Positions 22,580 to 46,100 of a stretch of 64,000 bases of DNA are shown one piece after another. Every line of letters starts with the position of its first letter. Positions within the stretch are counted from its first letter, which is position 1. The notes beneath the pieces are model-generated. The model made no database searches, was not told the origin of the DNA, and saw only the letters and a program-made list of their open reading frames with translations. The DNA is from Epinephelus fuscoguttatus (lineage: Eukaryota; Chordata; Actinopteri; Perciformes; Serranidae), in the NCBI RefSeq assembly GCF_011397635.1, contig NC_064770.1:35178598-35242597 (forward strand). The letters are read 5' to 3'. A program made the translations under genes and the position numbers.

Positions 22580-23745
22580 TTATGGAGGGATTACTGAACG
22601 GGCCTAGTGGCACAAGCACGTGGGCCCAAAGTGTCAGTAGGCCTCTAAAAATGGAATATATTACTAATTAATTCACTCCGCTACTCGTTAAATTACTATC
22701 CCATTACACCCCATAAAATTAGTACCTGCATATCTCCCCAAAATTAAGATGTGTTCCTCTGTGTGAATGTCAGGGTGATCAGCGTTAAGTGTAGCTAATG
22801 CTACATAGCTTCTATTTAGCTTTACCTTTTCTGTTGCCTGTGACCGGTATTTTCCCAGGGCTGTGCCCCAAAGACGGAAAGTCACTCATGGAGCAACATA
22901 TCCAACCACAAGCTTCATCACTTCTTTGCAGCTGCAGCTGTACACGATTAAAATCCACTTTTGGTTGTTTAGCCAGTGTAGCAATACAGCGCTGACCTCT
23001 GCAGCCGAGGAGAGCTCACCTTTGGTGGGGTGTATTTCCTGGAGCTTCACGCTGTTGTGCTGACGGTCGTAGTAGCCGAGGTGTTTCAGACTGAAGGTTT
23101 GAGGACGTGTTTTTTGCAGTGTAAAGTATTTTAGTTTGGCTTCCTGCAGCAGCAGTGTTCTTGTCAGCTTTCCTCCCGACAAAACCAATGTAATGGAAAT
23201 ATTTCCATACGTTTAGGTTGGTTTTTCCAACTAGCTTGGCGCTTTATGATGTGCAGGCACAACACAACAATTATTAAAATGAATCCACTGATGTGATTGT
23301 TGTATTTCAAGTCAGTAATGATGTGATAACAAAAGTAACGTAACGAATTGTTTAGTTTTGGAGTAACTGTAATATTATTACTGAAATTTCATTAGTAATT
23401 AGTTACCTTTTCCAGTAACGTGTGGTATAATATTATTACTGTAATGCATTACTGCCCAACACTGCTCAAAAGAGACTCAAAGTTGCCACAAAAAGATGCA
23501 AACTAACTGCGGAGAGACAAAACAACTACAAAAATAATTCAAAGAGACACAAAACAATTTAAACAGACACCAAATTACCTAAAAGAAACACAAACAAATG
23601 CTTTAGGGCTGCAAAAAGATTCAAAAAAGGAGGTAAAACTACAAAGTCTGTGTGTCACCTGTGTGGTGGGGTGGTGGGGCCTTTTGCACGTCTGTGCCCA
23701 GGTGCCCCCTGTCTCATAATCCGCCCCTGCTGCTGAGACAGACAC
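22580..23745. mobile_element. Composite repeat: hAT fragment inside a minisatellite-bearing element
   Basis: The right part (23466-23735) has short ACAAAACAACTACAAAAA-type units and the tail AAAGTCTGTGTGTCACC...GTCTGTGCCCAGG that also ends the element at 240-790. The left part (22590-22640) has GGGCCCAAAGTGTCAG, like that element's start. Between them lies hAT-type sequence ending, in reverse, CAGTGTTGGGCAGTAATGC plus TTACAGTAATAATATT at 23466. The left hAT end was not located, so borders are approximate. Confidence 0.5.
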
Positions 23746-34300: not shown

Positions 34301-35965
34301 ATCATGAGCCTCATTCTTTGTGCAGCTCCAAAGCTGGAAGTTGTTGCACCTCTCTCTGTAATTTTTGACCCACACATTTTGGATACTAAAGTTCATTTTT
34401 TGTTGACCACCGCATTGTTTTGTACACAAACCAAATTATCTTTGCTTTCATTTTATCCAGCCAGCCCTCAGTAACTTAACTTCTTTATGGTTCTCTGCTG
34501 CACCTCACTTTATTGCTGTTAGATTGGTTCAAACAAAGTTGATCATCATTTCCGGAATTAGGTGTCGACTTCCATTTTAATGTGAGTTGATTGAGGAAAG
34601 GAAGGGAAAATAATTGCCTCGTGGCACAGTTTTTAAATATTATACTTTCCAGTCCTTTTGCTTTGGGGTAGGTATCAAGTATTCTCAAGTCCAAGTCCAA
34701 GGGTAGTCATTGGTGTCTTTTTTGAGTTTGTCAAGTCTATAGTCATCAAATTTGTGACTTGAGTCTGAATTAAGTCCAGTTCATTAACTCATGTCCACAC
34801 CTCTGGTATTTGCCTCTAAAATCGAGTATGCGTTAAACTAAAGTGTTCACCATCAAACATACAAAATCCAAGAAAATATGAGAAATGAGAGCAACAGTGA
34901 TCAAGGCAAGATCAGCATTTACTTGTGTTTAATTGTTTAGTAAGATGTTTCCTGTTTGTTGAATTCACAGAGCACTTGAGGATCATGCTTCTAGGGAAGA
35001 GCGGGGTAGGCAAGAGCTCGAGTGGGAACACCATCCTCGGGCGACAGGTGTTCATCTCAGACATGAGGTTGGAGAGAGTCACTAAATACTGTGAAAAGGT
35101 ATGCGGGATCGTTAAGAATGTGCCTGACTCTATCACTGGAAAAGTGGGCGATGTGCCTGTTGCTGTGATCGACACACCTGGCTTTTTTGAGACAGACCGC
35201 AACAAGGAGGTGATTGTGCGAGATATTCTCAAGCGTGTCAAACTCCTGGAACAAGGACCTCACGTCTTTGTGTTAGTGTACCCCATTGGAAGGATGACTC
35301 AGGAAGACCAAGATACCAACAAGCTGATCGAAGCAATGTTTGGCCCGAGAGTGTGGGACTACACCATCGTGCTGTTCACCCATGGCGATCGTTTGGACGG
35401 AAAAACCATAAACGATGTGATCACAAAGAGTGAAGTCAACCTCCGCAACTTCATACGCAAATGCACCGGTGGCTTCCATGTCTTCAACAACAAGAACCCG
35501 CAGGAGCAGGACCAGGTGACAAGCTTCATGGCAAAGATCCAGACCCTGATGGCCCTGAATGGAGGGGGTCATTACAACACGGCCCTGTATCCCAAACCGG
35601 AGAGGATGATTAGGGAGAAACAGTTGAGCATCCTGGCGGAGAGAAACAAAAAGATCACCGACAAGGAGGAAAAGCTGCCAGATCATTTCAAGGATGAAGA
35701 GCTGGAGATGGAGAGGAAGAAGCTGTGGAGGAGAGAGGAGGACAAAGCAAGAGAGGCCGCAGAGAATTACATCTCCAAAAGCTCCTTAATTCGGAAAATC
35801 ATCTTCATACTGGTAGCAATAGCAGGGATCTGTTTTATTTGTAACACACCGAATGTGTGTTTTCTGATAGGAGTTGCAGTTGTTATTTTGATTTTTTTCA
35901 GGGAGTCTATTCTTAATCTGTTAATTTCAGGAGAAAACACATGGCTTCAAAAGAAAAATCAATAA
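31335..35965 (+). CDS. GIMAP-family (AIG1) GTPase
   Basis: Two coding exons: 31335-31380 and 34971-35965, phase 1 junction, 346 aa. The AIG1 GTPase domain begins at once: P-loop GKSGVGKSS (residues 24-32), G3 DTPG (83-86), the family box GPHVFVLVYPIGRMTQED (111-128), G4 as THGD (152-155, where Ras-type proteins have NKxD) and G5 region FHVFNNKN (184-191). Residues about 245-295 are a highly charged, probably coiled-coil stretch (DEELEMERKKLWRREEDKA). Two hydrophobic segments follow (IIFILVAIAGICFIC and VCFLIGVAVVILIFF) near the C-terminus and should anchor the protein to a membrane. GIMAPs act on lymphocyte survival and membrane traffic. A second in-frame donor (GTGATT after 31404) would add eight acidic residues. 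The intron of 3.6 kb is filled with transposons. No stop or frameshift. Fish carry many GIMAP paralogues, so no number is assigned. Confidence 0.92.
33205..33603. mobile_element. 399-base insertion with 9-base target duplication
   Basis: The parallel unit at about 32571-32590 lacks this segment, so the insertion is shown by comparison. It is flanked by 9-base near-duplicates GCAAAATGA (33196-33204) and GCAAAAGGA (33604-33612). Its right side ends in a hairpin (ACTCTACATTCA / TGAATGTAGAGT, about 33563-33588) followed by GAGACTA, the same last letters as the element at 33851-34239. A 9-base duplication suggests a Mutator-like mechanism. Confidence 0.6.
33851..34239. mobile_element. MULE-like MITE with 9-base target duplication, copy 1
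   Basis: The ends are TAGTCTGAGTGGG and, reversed, TAGTCTCGCTCACC. It is flanked by exact 9-base duplications GTTAAAAAG at 33842-33850 and 34240-34248. Near the right end is a perfect hairpin (AGACCTTTCTT / AAGAAAGGTCT). It is 389 bases long, with no coding sequence. A second copy, interrupted by another transposon, is at 58492-60349. Confidence 0.75.
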
Positions 35966-36949: not shown

Positions 36950-37016
36950 GTGGTCATGAGTGTGTGCTGCTCAGTGTTTCAGTTTGTTTCCTCTGTTGAG
37001 GGGCAGATGAGGTAAG
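36950..37016 (+). other. Possible non-coding immune-gene 5' exon
   Basis: GTTTCAGTTTGTTTCC resembles an imperfect IRF site, and 30 bases later GATGAG is followed by a donor-like GTAAGA. This looks like a short leader exon, but no downstream coding exon was found before the minisatellite. Weak evidence. Confidence 0.2.
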
Positions 37017-37419
37017 AACTGCTATTTTAATTTTTTCAGCAGTTAGCCCGGGGATTCTGAACAAAGGTGAAGTTGTTTTTATAGTTTGATGTAGCCTGCT
37101 GCAGTTTTATGAAACAAGTATGCATGGCCAGAGCAAACAGATGTTATGACATGATGCAGAGTGTGTTTGCTCACCTGTTTGCTGTACACCAGTCATAGCA
37201 GCCAGAAATGCCTGATGAGTGCACAGTACATACAACATACTGATGATAATCTTATGCCTTGGTATAGAGCATGTAGTAGCAGACAGTAGGCCTAGAGCAT
37301 CTGCTTCTTCAAAAGCCCATGAGTCATGTACAGCTTGGCATGAATTAGTCACACACATTCACAGGTCAGTTTAAAGATGAGTGAACTTCTGCTTTGTCTC
37401 TGACTGGGACACTTAAAGG

Positions 37420-37812
37420 GGAAGTACGCCATTTTAAACCCATTTTATCCCAGTGGTGTCAGACAGTTCAAAAATATTTTAGCGAACATAAACAACTCTT
37501 TCCCAAATTCAAAAACGACAGTGCTAAAACTCAAATATGTGATGTCACAGGGTATGAAGTCTGGAGCTGATCCACATACAGTGAATGGTGAGAGATGTTC
37601 TAGATGACACTGAGAGCAGCCACGGGATACACCTTAGTTTATGGGGACATTATCAGTTTCAGACCTGAGAACACTACAACAGAATTAGAGCTCACTTGGG
37701 TAGAAAAAGAAAACAAACATACTGTGGGTCAATAAAAATCAGTGTTCTATTCGTTGTCCAGGGTGCAGCTTCAGACTTTATACCCTATGACATCACAAGT
37801 TTGAGACGAACT
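37420..37812. mobile_element. Palindromic MITE next to the minisatellite
   Basis: CTCAAATATGTGATGTCA-type sequence with GGGTATGAAGTCTGGAGC (about 37530-37568) is inverted at 37764-37806 (GCTTCAGACTTTATACCC, TATGACATCACAAG). No coding sequence. Five pieces of this segment reappear, in order, inside the minisatellite at 40148-40473. Confidence 0.55.
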
Positions 37813-37879
37813 TACCACAGACATGCAGAGGGCGGCACCACCTGTCCTACATAGTCGCAAGACACACAGATGTTGTAGT

Positions 37880-40800
37880 TGTTTAGTGTCTCTTTGTGGT
37901 TGTTTTGTATCCTATTGGTCATTTGACTCTCCTTGTAGATGCTTTGGTTCTTTGTTCTCATTTTCAGTCTCTTTGTAGTCACTGAGTCTCCTTGTAGTCT
38001 TTTTGAGTCTCCTTGTAGTCACTGAGTCTCCTTGTAGTCTTTTTGAGTCTCCTTGTAGTCTTTGAGTCTCCTTGTAGTCTTTTTGAGTCTCCTTGTAGTC
38101 ACTGAGTCTCCTTGTAGTCTTTTTGAGTCTCCTTGTAGTCACTGAGTCTCCTTGTAGTCTTTTTGAGTCTCCTTGTAGTCACTGAGTCTCCTTGTAGTCT
38201 TTGAGTCTCCTTGTAGTCTTTTTGAGTCTCCTTGTAGTCACTGAGTCTCCTTGTAGTCATTTTGAGTCTCCTTGTAGTCTTTGAGTCTCCTTGTAGTCTT
38301 TTTGAGTCTCCTTGTAGTCACTGAGTCTCCTTGTAGTCTTTTTGAGTCTCCTTGTAGTCTTTGAGTCTCCTTGTAGTCTTTTTGAGTCTCTTTGTAGTTG
38401 CTTTGCATTTCTTTGTAGTCATTTGGAGTCTCCTTGTAGTCATTCTGAGTCTCTTTGTAGTTGCTTTGCATTCCTTTGTAGTCATTTTGAGTCTCTTTGT
38501 AGTCACCGAGTCTCCTTGTAGTCATTCTGAGTCTCTTTGTAGTTGCTTTGCATTTCCTTGTAGTCATTCTGAGTCTCTTTGTAGTCACTGAGTCTCCTTG
38601 TAGTCATTCTGAGTCTCTTTGTAGTTGCTTTGCATTTCCTTGTAGTCATTCTGAGTCTCCTTGTAGTCACTGAGTCTCCTTGTAGTCATTCTGAGTCTCT
38701 TTGTAGTTGCTTTGCATTTCTTTGTTGTCATTTTGAGTCTCTTTGTAGTCACTGAGTCTCCTTGTAGTCATTTTGAGTCTCTTTGTAGTCACTGGGTCTC
38801 CTTGTAGTCATTCTTAGTCTCCTTGTAGTCATTCTGAGTCTCCTTGTAGTCATTCTGAGTCTCTTTGTAGTTGCTTTGCATTTCTTTGTAGTCATTCTGA
38901 GTCTCTTTGTAGTCATTCTGAGTCTCCTTGTAGTCATTCTTAGTCTCCTTGTAGTCATTCTGAGTCTCCTTGTAGTCATTCTTAGTCTCCTTGTAGTCAT
39001 TCTGAGTCTCTTTGTAGTTGCTTTGCATTTCTTTGTAGTCATTCTGAGTCTCTTTGTAGTCACTGAGTCTCCTTGTAGTCATTTTGAGTCTCTTTGTAGT
39101 CACTGGGTCTCCTTGTAGTCATTCTTAGTCTCCTTGTAGTCATTCTGAGTCTCCTTGTAGTCATTCTGAATCTCCTTGTAGTCATTCTGAGTCTCTTTGT
39201 AGTTGCTTTGCATTTCTTTGTAGTCATTCTGAGTCTCTTTGTAGTCACTGAGTCTCCTTGTAGTCATTCTTAGTCTCCTTGTAGTCATTCTGAGTCTCCT
39301 TGTAGTCATTCTTAGTCTCCTTGTAGTCATTCTGAGTCTCTTTGTAGTTGCTTTGCATTTCTTTGTAGTCATTCTGAGTCTCTTTGTAGTCACTGAGTCT
39401 CCTTGTAGTCATTCTGAGTCTCCTTGTAGTCATTCTGAGTCTCTTTGTAGTTGCTTTGCATTTCTTTGTAGTCATTCTGAGTCTCCTTGTAGTCATTTTG
39501 AGTCTCTTTGTAGTCACTGAGTCTCCTTGTAGTCATTCTGAGTCTCTTTGTAGTTGCTTTGCATTTCTTTGTTGTCATTCTGAGTCTCTTTGTAGTCACT
39601 GAGTCTCCTTGTAGTCATTTTGAGTCTCTTTGTAGTCACTGGGTCTCCTTGTAGTCATTCTGAGTCTCCTTGTAGTCATTCTGAATCTCCTTGTAGTCAT
39701 TCTGAGTCTCTTTGTAGTTGCTTTGCATTTCTTTGTAGTCATTCTGAGTCTCTTTGTAGTCACTGAGTCTCCTTGTAGTCATTCTTAGTCTCCTTGTAGT
39801 CATTCTGAGTCTCCTTGTAGTCATTCTGAGTCTCTTTGTAGTTGCTTTGCATTTCTTTGTAGTCATTCTGAGTCTCCTTGTAGTCACTGAGTCTCCTTGT
39901 AGTCATTCTGAGTCTCTTTGTAGTTGCTTTGCATTTCTTTGTAGTCATTCTGAGTCTCCTTGTAGTCATTCTGAGTCTCCTTGTAGTCACTGAGTCTCCT
40001 TGTAGTCATTCTGAGTCTCTTTGTAGTTGCTTTGCATTTCTTTTGAGTCATTCCTCCTTAGTGTCATTCTGAGTCTCTTTGTAGTTGCTTTGCATTTCTT
40101 TGACTGAGTCATTTGAGTCTCTTGTAGTCATTTTCCCATTTCTGAGTCCCAGTGGTGTCAGACAGTTCTATTTGTAGTCTTCAACTCTTTCCCAAATTCG
40201 TAGTCAGTTCTCTCTTGTAGTCATTTCTATGAGTCTTTGTAGCTGAGTCCACATACAGTGAATGGTGAGAGATGTTGTAGTCATTCTGAGTCTCCTTGTA
40301 GTCATTCTGAGTCTTTGTAGTCATTAGTCTCTTGTAGACATTATCAGTCTTCAGACCTGAGTCACTGAGAATTGTAGTCATTCTGAGTCGTAGAAAATGT
40401 CTCCTTGTAGTCATTCTGAGTCTCTTTGTAGTCAGCTGAGTCTTTGTAGTCATTCTGACATCACAAGTTTGAGTGCTTTCTTTGTAGTTCTTCTGAGTCT
40501 CCTTGTAGTCATTCTGAGTCTCCTTGTAGTCACTGAGTCTCCTTGTAGTCATTCTGAGTCTCTTTGTAGTTGCTTTGCATTTCTTTGTAGTCATTCTGAG
40601 TCTCCTTGTAGTCATTCTGAGTCTCCTTGTAGTCTTAGTGCTTCTCTTTGGAGTCTTTTTGCTTCTCTTTGTAGTCATTTTGAGTCTCTTTGTAGTCACT
40701 GAGTCTCCTTGTAGTCATTCTGAGTCTCTTTGTAGTTGCTTTGCATTTCTTTGTAGTCATTCTGAGTCTCCTTGTAGTCATTCTGAGTCTCCTTGTAGTC

Positions 40801-42640
40801 ACTGAGTCTCCTTGTAGTCATTCTGAGTCTCTTTGTAGTTGCTTTGCATTTCTTTGTAGTCATTCTGAGTCTCCTTGTAGTCATTCTGAGTCTCTTTGTA
40901 GTTGCTTTGCATTTCTTTGTAGTCATTTTGAGTCTCTTTGTAGTCACTGAGTCTCCTTGTAGTCATTCTGAGTCTCTTTGTAGTTGCTTTGAGTCTCCTT
41001 TTTTTCATTTTGAGTCTCTTTGTAGTCACTGAGTCTCCTTGTAGTCATTCTTAGTCTCCTTGTAGTCATTCTGAGTCTCCTTGTAGTCATTCTGAGTCTC
41101 TTTGTAGTTGCTTTGCATTTCTTTGTAGTCATTCTGAGTCTCCTTGTAGTCACTGAGTCTCCTTGTAGTCATTCTGAGTCTCTTTGTAGTTGCTTTGCAT
41201 TTCTTTGTAGTCATTCTGAGTCTCCTTGTAGTCATTCTGAGTCTCCTTGTAGTCACTGAGTCTCCTTGTAGTCATTCTGAGTCTCTTTGTAGTTGCTTTG
41301 CATTTCTTTGTAGTCATTCTGAGTCTCCTTGTAGTCATTCTGAGTCTCCTTGTAGTCATTCTGAGTCTCTTTGTAGTTGCTTTGCATTTCTTTGTAGTCA
41401 TTTTGAGTCTCTTTGTAGTCACTGAGTCTCCTTGTAGTCATTCTGAGTCTCTTTGTAGTTGCTTTGCATTTCTTTGTAGTCATTTTGAGTCTCTTTGTAG
41501 TCACTGAGTCTCCTTGTAGTCATTCTGAGTCTCCTTGTAGTTGCTTTGCATTTCTTTGTAGTCATTTTGAGTCTCTTTGTAGTCACTGAGTCTCCTTGTA
41601 GTCATTCTGAGTCTCCTTGTAGTCATTCTGAGTCTCTTTGTAGTTGCTTTGCATTTCTTTGTAGTCATTTTGAGTCTCTTTGTAGTCACTGAGTCTCCTT
41701 GTAGTCATTCTGAGTCTCTTTGTAGTTGCTTTGCATTTCTTTGTAGTCATTTTGAGTCTCTTTGTAGTCACTGAGTCTCCTTGTAGTCATTTTGAGTCTC
41801 TTTGTAGTCACTGAGTCTCCTTGTAGTCATTCTGAGTCTCCTTGTAGTTGCTTTGCATTTCTTTGTAGTCATTTTGAGTCTCTTTGTAGTCACTGAGTCT
41901 CCTTGTAGTCATTTTGAGTCTCTTTGTAGTCACTGAGTCTCCTTGTAGTCTTTTTGAGTCTCTTTGTAGTCACTGAGTCTCCTTGTAGTCATTTTGAGTC
42001 TCTTTGTAGTTGCTTTGCATTTCTTTGTAGTCATTTTGAGTCTCTTTGTAGTCACTGAGTCTCCTTGTAGTCATTCTGAGTCTCCTTGTAGTTGCTTTGC
42101 ATTTCTTTGTAGTCATTCTGAGTCTCTTTGTAGTCACTGAGTCTCCTTGTAGTCATTCTGAGTCTCTTTGTAGTTGCTTTGCATTTCTTTGTAGTCATTT
42201 TAAGTCTCTTTGTAGTCACTGAGTCTCCTTGTAGTCTTTTTGAGTCTCCTTGTAGTCACTGAGTCTCCTTGTAGTCTTTTTGAGTCTCCTTGTAGTCACT
42301 GAGTCTCTTTGTAGTCACCGAGTCTCCTTGTAGTCATTCTGAGTCTCTTTGTAGTTGCTTTGCATTTCTTTGTAGTCATTTTGAGTCTCTTTGTAGTCAT
42401 TTTGAGTCTCTTTGTAGTCACTGAGTCTCCTTGTAGTCACTGAGTCTCCTTGTAGTCATTTTGAGTGTGTTTGGAGATGTTTTTGTTCTTTGTACTTACT
42501 TTGAATCTCCCTGTAATTGCTTTGCATCTCTTTGTAGTCATTTCGAGTCTCTTACAGATGCTTTGTTTGTCTTTGAGGTCATTTTGTGTCCCTTCATAGC
42601 TGATTAAGTCTCTTTGTGGTCATTTTGAGTTCTCATTTGT
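37880..42640. repeat. Large minisatellite, ~4.7 kb
   Basis: The array is built from units of 17-21 bases of the form GAGTCTCCTTGTAGTCA plus CT, TTCT or TTTT, and from a 42-base higher-order unit GAGTCTCTTTGTAGTTGC + TTTGCATTTCTTTGTAGTCATTCT. The first ~500 bases (37980-38400) use mainly the short CACT/CTTT forms, the rest alternates short and long units. Because 21 and 42 are multiples of three, long open frames appear on both strands (MTTRRL, NDYKETQ, ESLCSH repeats); they start and stop with the array and are not genes. The edges (37880-37970 and 42470-42640) hold more diverged units, as expected for an old element whose centre has expanded. An interleaved tract interrupts it at 40.09-40.48 kb. 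Confidence 0.92.
40090..40490. other. Interleaved tract: minisatellite mixed with the 37.4-37.8 kb flank
   Basis: Five exact blocks of the palindromic MITE 37420-37812 occur here in the same order: 37449-37469 at 40148-40168, 37493-37510 at 40182-40199, 37571-37599 at 40248-40276, 37646-37657 at 40337-40348 and 37788-37805 at 40456-40473. Offsets stay within 2668-2699 bases. Between the blocks is broken minisatellite (TTGTAGTC, GAGTCTT). The near-constant offset over 330 bases looks like a base-by-base blend of two aligned sequences, as a faulty consensus would make. Confidence 0.75.
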
Positions 42641-43136: not shown

Positions 43137-46100
43137 CTATTCTGTCATGTCTTTCTCCTCTTCATCATTTCCCCCCTCGTCTTCCTCCTCTTCATCATCT
43201 TCGTCAAAGTATTTATCCTCTGCATCTCTGCTGACTATGTCCAAGTTGTCGTAGTCTGGATTCTCGTCCACCTCACTGTAATAGACACACAAGCAATCAC
43301 CCAGAATAAGGTCATACTTAGATAAAACGAGCTCTGGATACACTGTTTAATGTCTGTGTATCAAAAATGCAGCCTTTATATCGTGTGAATGCCAGCTGAG
43401 TGGCGGTGTGACTGACCTGTAGTTGAAATCCTTGTCTTTGCCATCTAGGAAGCGCTGATGCATCTGACTGATGAACTCCTCCTTGAGCAGAGCCTTCTCC
43501 TCTGCGGTGGGCTCCCATTCCTTCTGCTGGACAGTGTTATCTGCAGTAGGAACAAGGAGACAGATCATAAAGTAATGGACATTTACTCCATGACGTCACC
43601 CGTTAGTTTGATGACTCAGGTTTTTAAGCCTTGAGTTTGACCTTTTGATCGTCACCATCTTGGATCTCTGGAGCCAGAAGTAATATTTCGGCCGACAAAG
43701 TGGAGTTGTGGGGGAAATGAGGGTCTGTGTGGTTTGACTCCCTTTTGGAGCCAGGCTCAGGTGGCCATTTGAGGAACTGCAGTTTTTGACACTCCCACAT
43801 TGGATTAATATCAGCCCCAGAGGTTGCTGCTTCAGGGAGACACAAAATGACTAATGGAGACAGAGAAAAAAGGAGAATCCATCCATCCATTTTCATCCAC
43901 TTATCCGGGGCCGGGTCGGGGGGGCAGCAGGCCAAGCAAAGCACCCCAGACGTCCCTCTCCCCTGCAACACTTCCCAGCTCCTCCTGGGGGACCCCGAGG
44001 TGTTCCCATGCCAGACGAGATATGTAATCCCTCCAGTGTGTTCTGGGTCTGCCCCGGGGCCTCCTATCAGTGGGAACCTGATCAGATGCCCGAACCACCT
44101 CAACTGACCCCTTTTGAACTACTCTGAGCTCCTCTCTAAGGCTGAGAGCAGACACCCCACGGAGGAAACTTATTTCTTCTGCTTGTATCTGCGATCTCAT
44201 TCTTTCGGTCACTACCCAGAGCTCATGACCATAGGTGAGGGTTGGGACGTAGATGGACCAGTAAATCAAAAGCTTTGCCTCCTGGCTCAGCTCCCTCTTC
44301 ACCACGACAGTTTGGCGCAGTGCCCTCATCACCGCAGAAGCCTCGCCAAACCACCGATCCATCTCACGCTCCATTCTACCCTCACTCGTGAACAAGACCC
44401 CGAGATACTTGAACTCGCTTGAGGCAGTAACTCTCACCCAACCCAGATGGTCAATCCACTGAGAATCCAAGGAGAATTCAAGCCGTAAGGGCAGAGAAAC
44501 AACATTTTATAACTTCAGCCTCTCTCACCTTCGTCGTCATCCTCCTCCTCCTCCAGTGCTCCCTCCTCTCTCTCCTGCTCCTCCTGTAGCCGGTTCTGGA
44601 TGAGACGCTCCTGGTAGGAGTTGAGGAGGAGGTGGGCGAGCCCTCCTGTGCTTCCCGCCGGTGCCCCTGGTCCCCCCTGTGTATTGTCCAGCATGGCCTC
44701 CTGGGAGCGCTCAAACACCTGAAACATTAGTCATTCAGAACTTACTAAAATACTGCCTCAACTGAACTGTTAATGATGAAATAACTCTGCATCGTGCTCT
44801 CACCTCCTCATCAGTCAGGTACTGGCCAATATATTGTTCATACAGCAGCGGCTCCCTCATCCTCATCTGCTCCTCACTGAAATACTCACCCTCTAGAGGA
44901 GGGAATACGGCAGAGGAACAAAAGGGGTGACACAGTGGGAGGGAAAGAAGTACTTCGTCAGGCGTACAGTACATACAATACAACACTGCCAGTGATTAGT
45001 GTAGGGATTGCTGGGGCGGCAGTAAAGTAAAACCAAAACTATCTGCACAATACAAGTGGCAAGTGGAAAATATGTTATGTAAACTTACCTTTTAAAAAGA
45101 GAGCAGACACTTTTAGCCCATTCTAACGCAGCTACAGTAAAATGAATTTATCAATATTTTTTTTTTGTTTCAGCTGACAAAACAAATCCCCTACCCCTCT
45201 GCAGGGCTCTGAGGGCAGCATAGCGGTGGTTTCGAACCCTCGTCCTGTTGGTGCATCCTGCTGCTCGTCTCTGTATCACCTTGCTGTAGTGAGCAGCTCG
45301 TGGATCTGAGCTGACGTGGGCAAACGCTGGCAGGTCCTGGGGCTTGAGGCAGGCCTGGAAATAGGGGGAGAGCAGATAACACAACAACAAGAAAAGGTTA
45401 GCACAAAAACTATGTCAGACAGGAGTCAGGTTAATTTCCAGGGCTGGTACCTGCGGTTATTCCACAGGCTAGTTAATAACATGTCGGGCAGGAAATCCAA
45501 AGTGTGGGATCATTTTGAGAAGGTGAAGGACGAACCCAAGGTGATATGTAAACTCATCTTCATTGGTCGACTACAAACATGACGTATCATCTGAAACATG
45601 GAAGTAGCTACATGCCCATTAGCCCACAGCGTCATTAACAGGCGGCTCGCTCAGTGTGTGACGTGCACTTGGAGATAAAATATAGGCCTATATTAATGAA
45701 GGTTCATTAGTACGGTTTGTATTTCTCTGTAATGTAGCACAGTGTTAACAATGTTACTGATACTATTCTTTCTCACACCTTCAACTCAAACCACCAAAAT
45801 ATATCATTTAATCATTACATTAATATCCTCAGAAGATGATCACTAACATTAGGTAGGGAAAAAGCAGATATATCGATAACTCTATTGGTTATTTGTCAAA
45901 TAAGTTGTTACATATCGGCATAACATATATTGGCAGAAAGTCTAATATCGTGCTACCAGCATATATAAAGTCCCCTTCAGCTGCTGCCCAGATTATATAA
46001 ACACGTATATGCGGGCAAATAAACACACACAGACACACACATTTGTTGAGCCGTGCACACGTACATGGTACCTCTCCAGGAACACCAGGGGTCTGCTCCT

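Follow-up and report, generated by a model that had tools for sequence, protein, structure and literature searches.

In this analysis of a 64,000-nucleotide window (the whole stretch of DNA that was examined) from Epinephelus fuscoguttatus, we found that a minisatellite array contains a mosaic tract in which short pieces of the left flank of the array are interleaved with damaged array units. This tract is very probably a consensus artefact that arose during polishing or assembly and not a biological event. The artefact reading is supported because the flank pieces keep a constant register, the shortened units are confined to the tract, the scrambled units are clustered and comparable mosaics were obtained in simulations. 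From the letters of the sequence alone, it had already been suspected that the consensus combines two different sequences that were aligned with each other, and thus that an assembly or polishing error is likely, and the register, the unit damage, the scrambles and the simulation all lend support to that suspicion. The minisatellite array is one of the two sources that are blended in the tract. The three stretches that are concerned are the following.

37918 to 42466 (approximate), forward strand: minisatellite array with units of 19 and 21 bp, GTCATTCTGAGTCTCCTTGTA and its variants, as found using Tandem Repeats Finder and TGTAG spacing

40103 to 40490, forward strand: mosaic tract in which blocks of the flank alternate with damaged array units

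37439 to 37805, forward strand: stretch of the left flank, pieces of which reappear in the tract, as found using exact matches, blastn, threading and the gap lengths

A comparison of positions 37000-37917 with positions 37918-42600 for exact matches of at least 11 bases returned eight matches. Six of the eight are collinear and on the same strand, leading from 37448-37805 in the flank to 40147-40473 in the tract, and these six main blocks are identical to the flank copy at 111 of 111 bases. The sequence-only reading had reported five collinear blocks, from 37449-37805 to 40148-40473, with offsets of 2668-2699; its pattern and offsets hold, while the count has to be corrected to six, two of which are neighbouring 12-mers. 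Two smaller exact matches lie on the same line, which gives the following order along the tract.

40135 to 40141, forward strand: 7-bp flank block, equal to 37439-37445, smaller exact match on the same line

40147 to 40168, forward strand: 22-bp flank block, equal to 37448-37469, offset 2699

40182 to 40199, forward strand: 18-bp flank block, equal to 37493-37510, offset 2689

40248 to 40276, forward strand: 29-bp flank block, equal to 37571-37599, offset 2677

40337 to 40348, forward strand: 12-bp flank block, equal to 37646-37657, offset 2691

40350 to 40361, forward strand: 12-bp flank block, equal to 37658-37669, offset 2692

40390 to 40397, forward strand: 8-bp flank block, equal to 37700-37707, smaller exact match on the same line

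40456 to 40473, forward strand: 18-bp flank block, equal to 37788-37805, offset 2668

The two remaining matches, of 11 and 12 bp, fall off this line with offsets of 5304 and 2402, and the one with the offset of 2402, at 40270, was treated as a coincidence because it overlaps both the 29-bp block, at its end, and the array word that follows. When the tract was threaded through two sources, a model of the array and a flank, the real flank scored 810, whereas 228 control segments of the window, taken on both strands, had a mean of 629 (SD 11) and a maximum of 666; the reversed flank and its reverse complement each scored 634. In a blastn comparison, the flank and the tract aligned with an E value of 3e-20 and 67% identity. 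The collinear blocks, together with a threading score of 810 against a control maximum of 666, confirm that the flank/tract pattern is truly present in the sequence as it was assembled. An open frame of 172 codons on the reverse strand (40181-40699) spans the tract, and it was taken as a by-product of the repeats and not as a gene.

The order, strand and register of the flank pieces are held over 367 bp of the flank with an offset range of only 31. The lengths between the successive blocks, with the two extra blocks of 7 and 8 bp taken in, are 2/5, 23/13, 60/48, 46/60, 0/1, 30/28 and 80/58 (flank/tract), and the skipped flank and the inserted tract thus nearly balance each other, with a Pearson r of 0.92 over these seven gaps. 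In 0.35% of the permutations (0.0035; seven gaps only), the offset range did not exceed 31, and under a simple switching model in which the two lengths are independent, so small a range was reached at p=0.0009 with a median range of 113, again for seven gaps. Serial template switching predicts that the inserted lengths are independent of the skipped template lengths, and such an independence was not found among the seven gaps. The phase of the array across the flank blocks gave a less clear picture: the best fit matched 348 of 379 bases, inside the range of 340-352 for 15 imitations with a random phase, while the fit averaged over 304 segments of the array reached 335.2 for the tract compared to 328.1-334.2 for the imitations.

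The array units themselves are in part damaged between the flank blocks. Shortened units, namely GAGTCTTTGTAG (three copies) and GTCTCTTGTAG (two copies), occur five times in 40041-40500 and nowhere else in the array, where the two normal unit forms have 147 copies outside the tract; both of the short forms were picked after the tract had been read. This bears out the earlier remark that broken minisatellite lies between the flank blocks. Outside the tract, the array is highly regular, with a TGTAG-to-TGTAG spacing of 19 bp in 50 cases, 21 bp in 137 and a larger value in six. Irregularity was defined as bases that were not covered by any 10-mer seen at least four times, and the range that was scanned was 37966-42466. 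All 13 of the irregularities of at least two bases in this range lie at 40044-41004, and the 12 irregular sites beyond that interval are each a single-base variant. The loss or scrambling of letters in the repeat units is thus restricted to the region of the mixing. The irregular stretches outside the tract include the following three.

40044 to 40062, forward strand: scrambled array units immediately left of the tract, from the irregularity scan, with the flank as a candidate origin only

40637 to 40663, forward strand: scrambled units of the array on the right side of the tract, from the irregularity scan, with the flank as a candidate origin only

41001 to 41004, forward strand: final small irregularity of the array right of the tract, from the irregularity scan, with a flank origin that is unsupported

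Outside 40103-40490, the signal of the flank is at most borderline. In the threading, 7 of 776 controls were as good as the flank for 40000-40110, and 13 of 776 for 40000-40134. To the right of the tract, the corresponding numbers were 10 of 776 for 40560-40900 and 37 of 776 for 40560-41060, the right flank outscoring the left one in both, and 155 of 780 for 40900-41060. The outer scrambles may be array units that were blended out of phase.

The mechanism that we propose for the artefact starts from two populations of noisy long reads that would have been assigned to one stretch of the array, one carrying pure minisatellite and the other the left flank of 37.44-37.81 kb. The consensus step would then pair both types of reads base against base and, where their depths are nearly equal, its path would alternate between the two sources, switching at letters that they share. 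Such an alternation would preserve the order and the register of both sources and would lose letters from the repeat units, and no single molecule would carry the sequence of the tract. Most likely, reads that cover the boundary between the flank and the array were set about 2.69 kb too far to the right, and this slippage could be due to haplotypes that differ in the length of the array or to an array whose full length exceeds what could be resolved.

The capability of this mechanism was examined using a home-made partial-order consensus aligner, which was given noisy copies both of the flank stretch and of stretches of clean array. A simulated mosaic was counted when it had 3-10 flank blocks of at least 12 bp and at least six array words. 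At a read error of 12% and an equal depth, mosaics arose in 9 of 40 runs (5:5), 29 of 40 (10:10) and 35 of 40 (20:20). Over all seven mixtures, they arose in 82 of 280 runs at an error of 12%, in 42 of 280 at 5% and in none of 280 at 1%, and equal depths accounted for 115 of the 124 mosaics. All 124 were collinear; the median offset range lay between 11 and 22 in the individual settings, the largest range was 87, and the real tract, with its six blocks and its range of 31, falls within these values. The two-source consensus therefore recreated the blocks, their order and their offset range. The five shortened units of the tract were not reproduced in these simulations; any such units appeared in just 10 of the 124 mosaics and at a lower rate. 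The home-made aligner differs from the program that was really used for the assembly, so the simulation speaks to what such a consensus step can do and not to its occurrence, and it is by inference that we take the same process to have acted in this assembly.

As to which second sequence was mixed in, we favour the slipped left flank, which we consider about twice as probable as a second copy of the flank element, and it was ranked first because it needs no extra copy. In the version with a second copy, one haplotype would carry a clean, nearly identical foldback-like element inside its array, and the consensus would blend the haplotype that has this copy with the one that lacks it. We regard this version, which is a part of the artefact reading and not a rival to it, as possible but rather doubtful. 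It draws on an inverted repeat in the flank stretch with the following arms.

37530 to 37586, forward strand: left arm of the inverted repeat, 57 bp, 77%, foldback-like element

37749 to 37805, reverse strand: right arm of the inverted repeat, 57 bp, 77%, foldback-like element

The collinear flank pieces end at 37805, which is the outer end of an arm of the inverted repeat and not the start of the array, 112 bp further on. How unusual such an early stop would be was assessed with flank-specific words and the same on-line rule for the tract and for 199 simulated mosaics of flank plus array from 480 runs. With the off-line words dropped in both, 24 of the 199 mosaics stopped at least 112 bp early, which speaks for a second copy to a certain extent; when the off-line words were kept in the mosaics only, the number was 19 of 206. 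With the off-line words kept in both, the real distance is 38, a value that was reached by 51 of the 199 mosaics, and the early stop is then not unusual. Because of this result under the raw rule, the early stop weakens the slipped flank as the source only mildly, and the odds between the two sources were left as they were after the recount. A second copy would moreover have to be identical to the first one over 111 of 111 bases and to lie within 2.7 kb of it. The ends of the element are unsupported as well: the terminal inverted repeats that were sought for it were not significant, with 956 of 2000 shuffles being as good. A blastn search of 37380-37860 against the window revealed no other full copy. 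The foldback-like inverted repeat (37530-37805) adjoins the array and could belong to a dispersed element.

Compared with a consensus artefact, a tract that exists as such in the DNA is far less credible. The best of these explanations is a single event of break repair during which copying alternated between the flank and the array at least six times with both templates in register, and we consider it very unlikely. A similar block size has been described for break repair in yeast, in which very short templated inverted duplications occur, most of which are of about 5-34 bp (PMC11724301, as far as its title and the opening of its abstract go); the pieces described here are direct, whereas those in yeast are inverted. 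Template switching also provides no reason for the register of both templates, for the shortening of units only in the tract or for scrambled units over about 0.5 kb to its right. We know of no reason why it should combine at least six alternations, templates in register and damaged units. If the alternation were real, the flank and the minisatellite templates would have behaved as if they were kept side by side and, to our knowledge, such an in-register alternation of templates is unexpected under the current models of repair.

Gene conversion, in which mismatches in a flank/array heteroduplex would be repaired in patches, would preserve the register, but it is scarcely plausible since the two sequences are probably too dissimilar to pair; even with the copied blocks included, the gapped alignment of the flank and the tract reaches no more than the 67% given above, and such an identity is expected to be too low for a heteroduplex to form. 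An old copy of the element that was inserted in the array and then decayed would account for the length of the tract, which from the first to the last block is 339 bp, or about the 367 bp of the flank, but decay is expected to leave scattered substitutions and not perfect blocks parted by array units, and we give this explanation next to no weight. Both of these were considered and rejected, as was an ordinary duplication. Nor does the array start seem to have been simply duplicated at the tract's offset: when the initial 300-600 bp of the array were compared with its later part without gaps, offsets of 2668-2699 were absent from the twelve best, the best value being 0.59 at an offset of 2441 and the third 0.56 at 2647.

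In passages of two papers, repeats and haplotypes of unequal copy number are discussed as causes of misassembly, switch errors and collapse, fish included (PMC13032017, PMC6868369). One of them reports zero switch errors in its 13 antifreeze-gene arrays, which were assembled from accurate reads (PMC13032017), and this is consistent with a lower susceptibility of accurate reads to blends of this kind. The errors described in these passages concern whole contigs or units, whereas the tract reported here is an interleaving of flank and array at the scale of bases, for which no description was found in the passages or in the titles and abstract openings searched. As far as the titles and abstract openings of PMC11724301 and PMC5677150 go, templated insertions and template switching resemble the tract in that short pieces are copied from nearby DNA. 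At this level of detail, the support from the literature is limited to the general statement that assembly has difficulties with tandem arrays and with haplotypes of unequal copy number.

Collinear, in-register pieces of a flank inside an array, together with shortened units, constitute a fingerprint of this kind of artefact. It could be used to flag repeat arrays that have been badly called, and it calls for caution before similar tracts are read as complex rearrangements.

Several further observations concern the array and the rest of the window. By eye, the GTCTTTTTG units, of which there are 13 in the array outside 40041-40500, lie mostly near both of its edges (37997-38390 and about 41940-42290), while the TTGCTTTGCATTTC units occupy its middle, which gives a higher-order layout with GTCTTTTTG edges. 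Stretches related to the minisatellite were found by blastn on the opposite strand at 323-706, 23469-23646 and 43830-43870, and the unit family is thus dispersed across the window. The window is eukaryotic in character, as is evident from the Pfam matches of its reading frames: of the six that were scanned, two had no match in Pfam, and the others yielded an AIG1/GIMAP-type GTPase, a reverse transcriptase, a Myb/SANT-like domain and a DDE transposase, the last of which was slightly below the curated cut-off. The reading frame of the AIG1/GIMAP-family GTPase encodes 346 amino acids and is located at 34925-35965.
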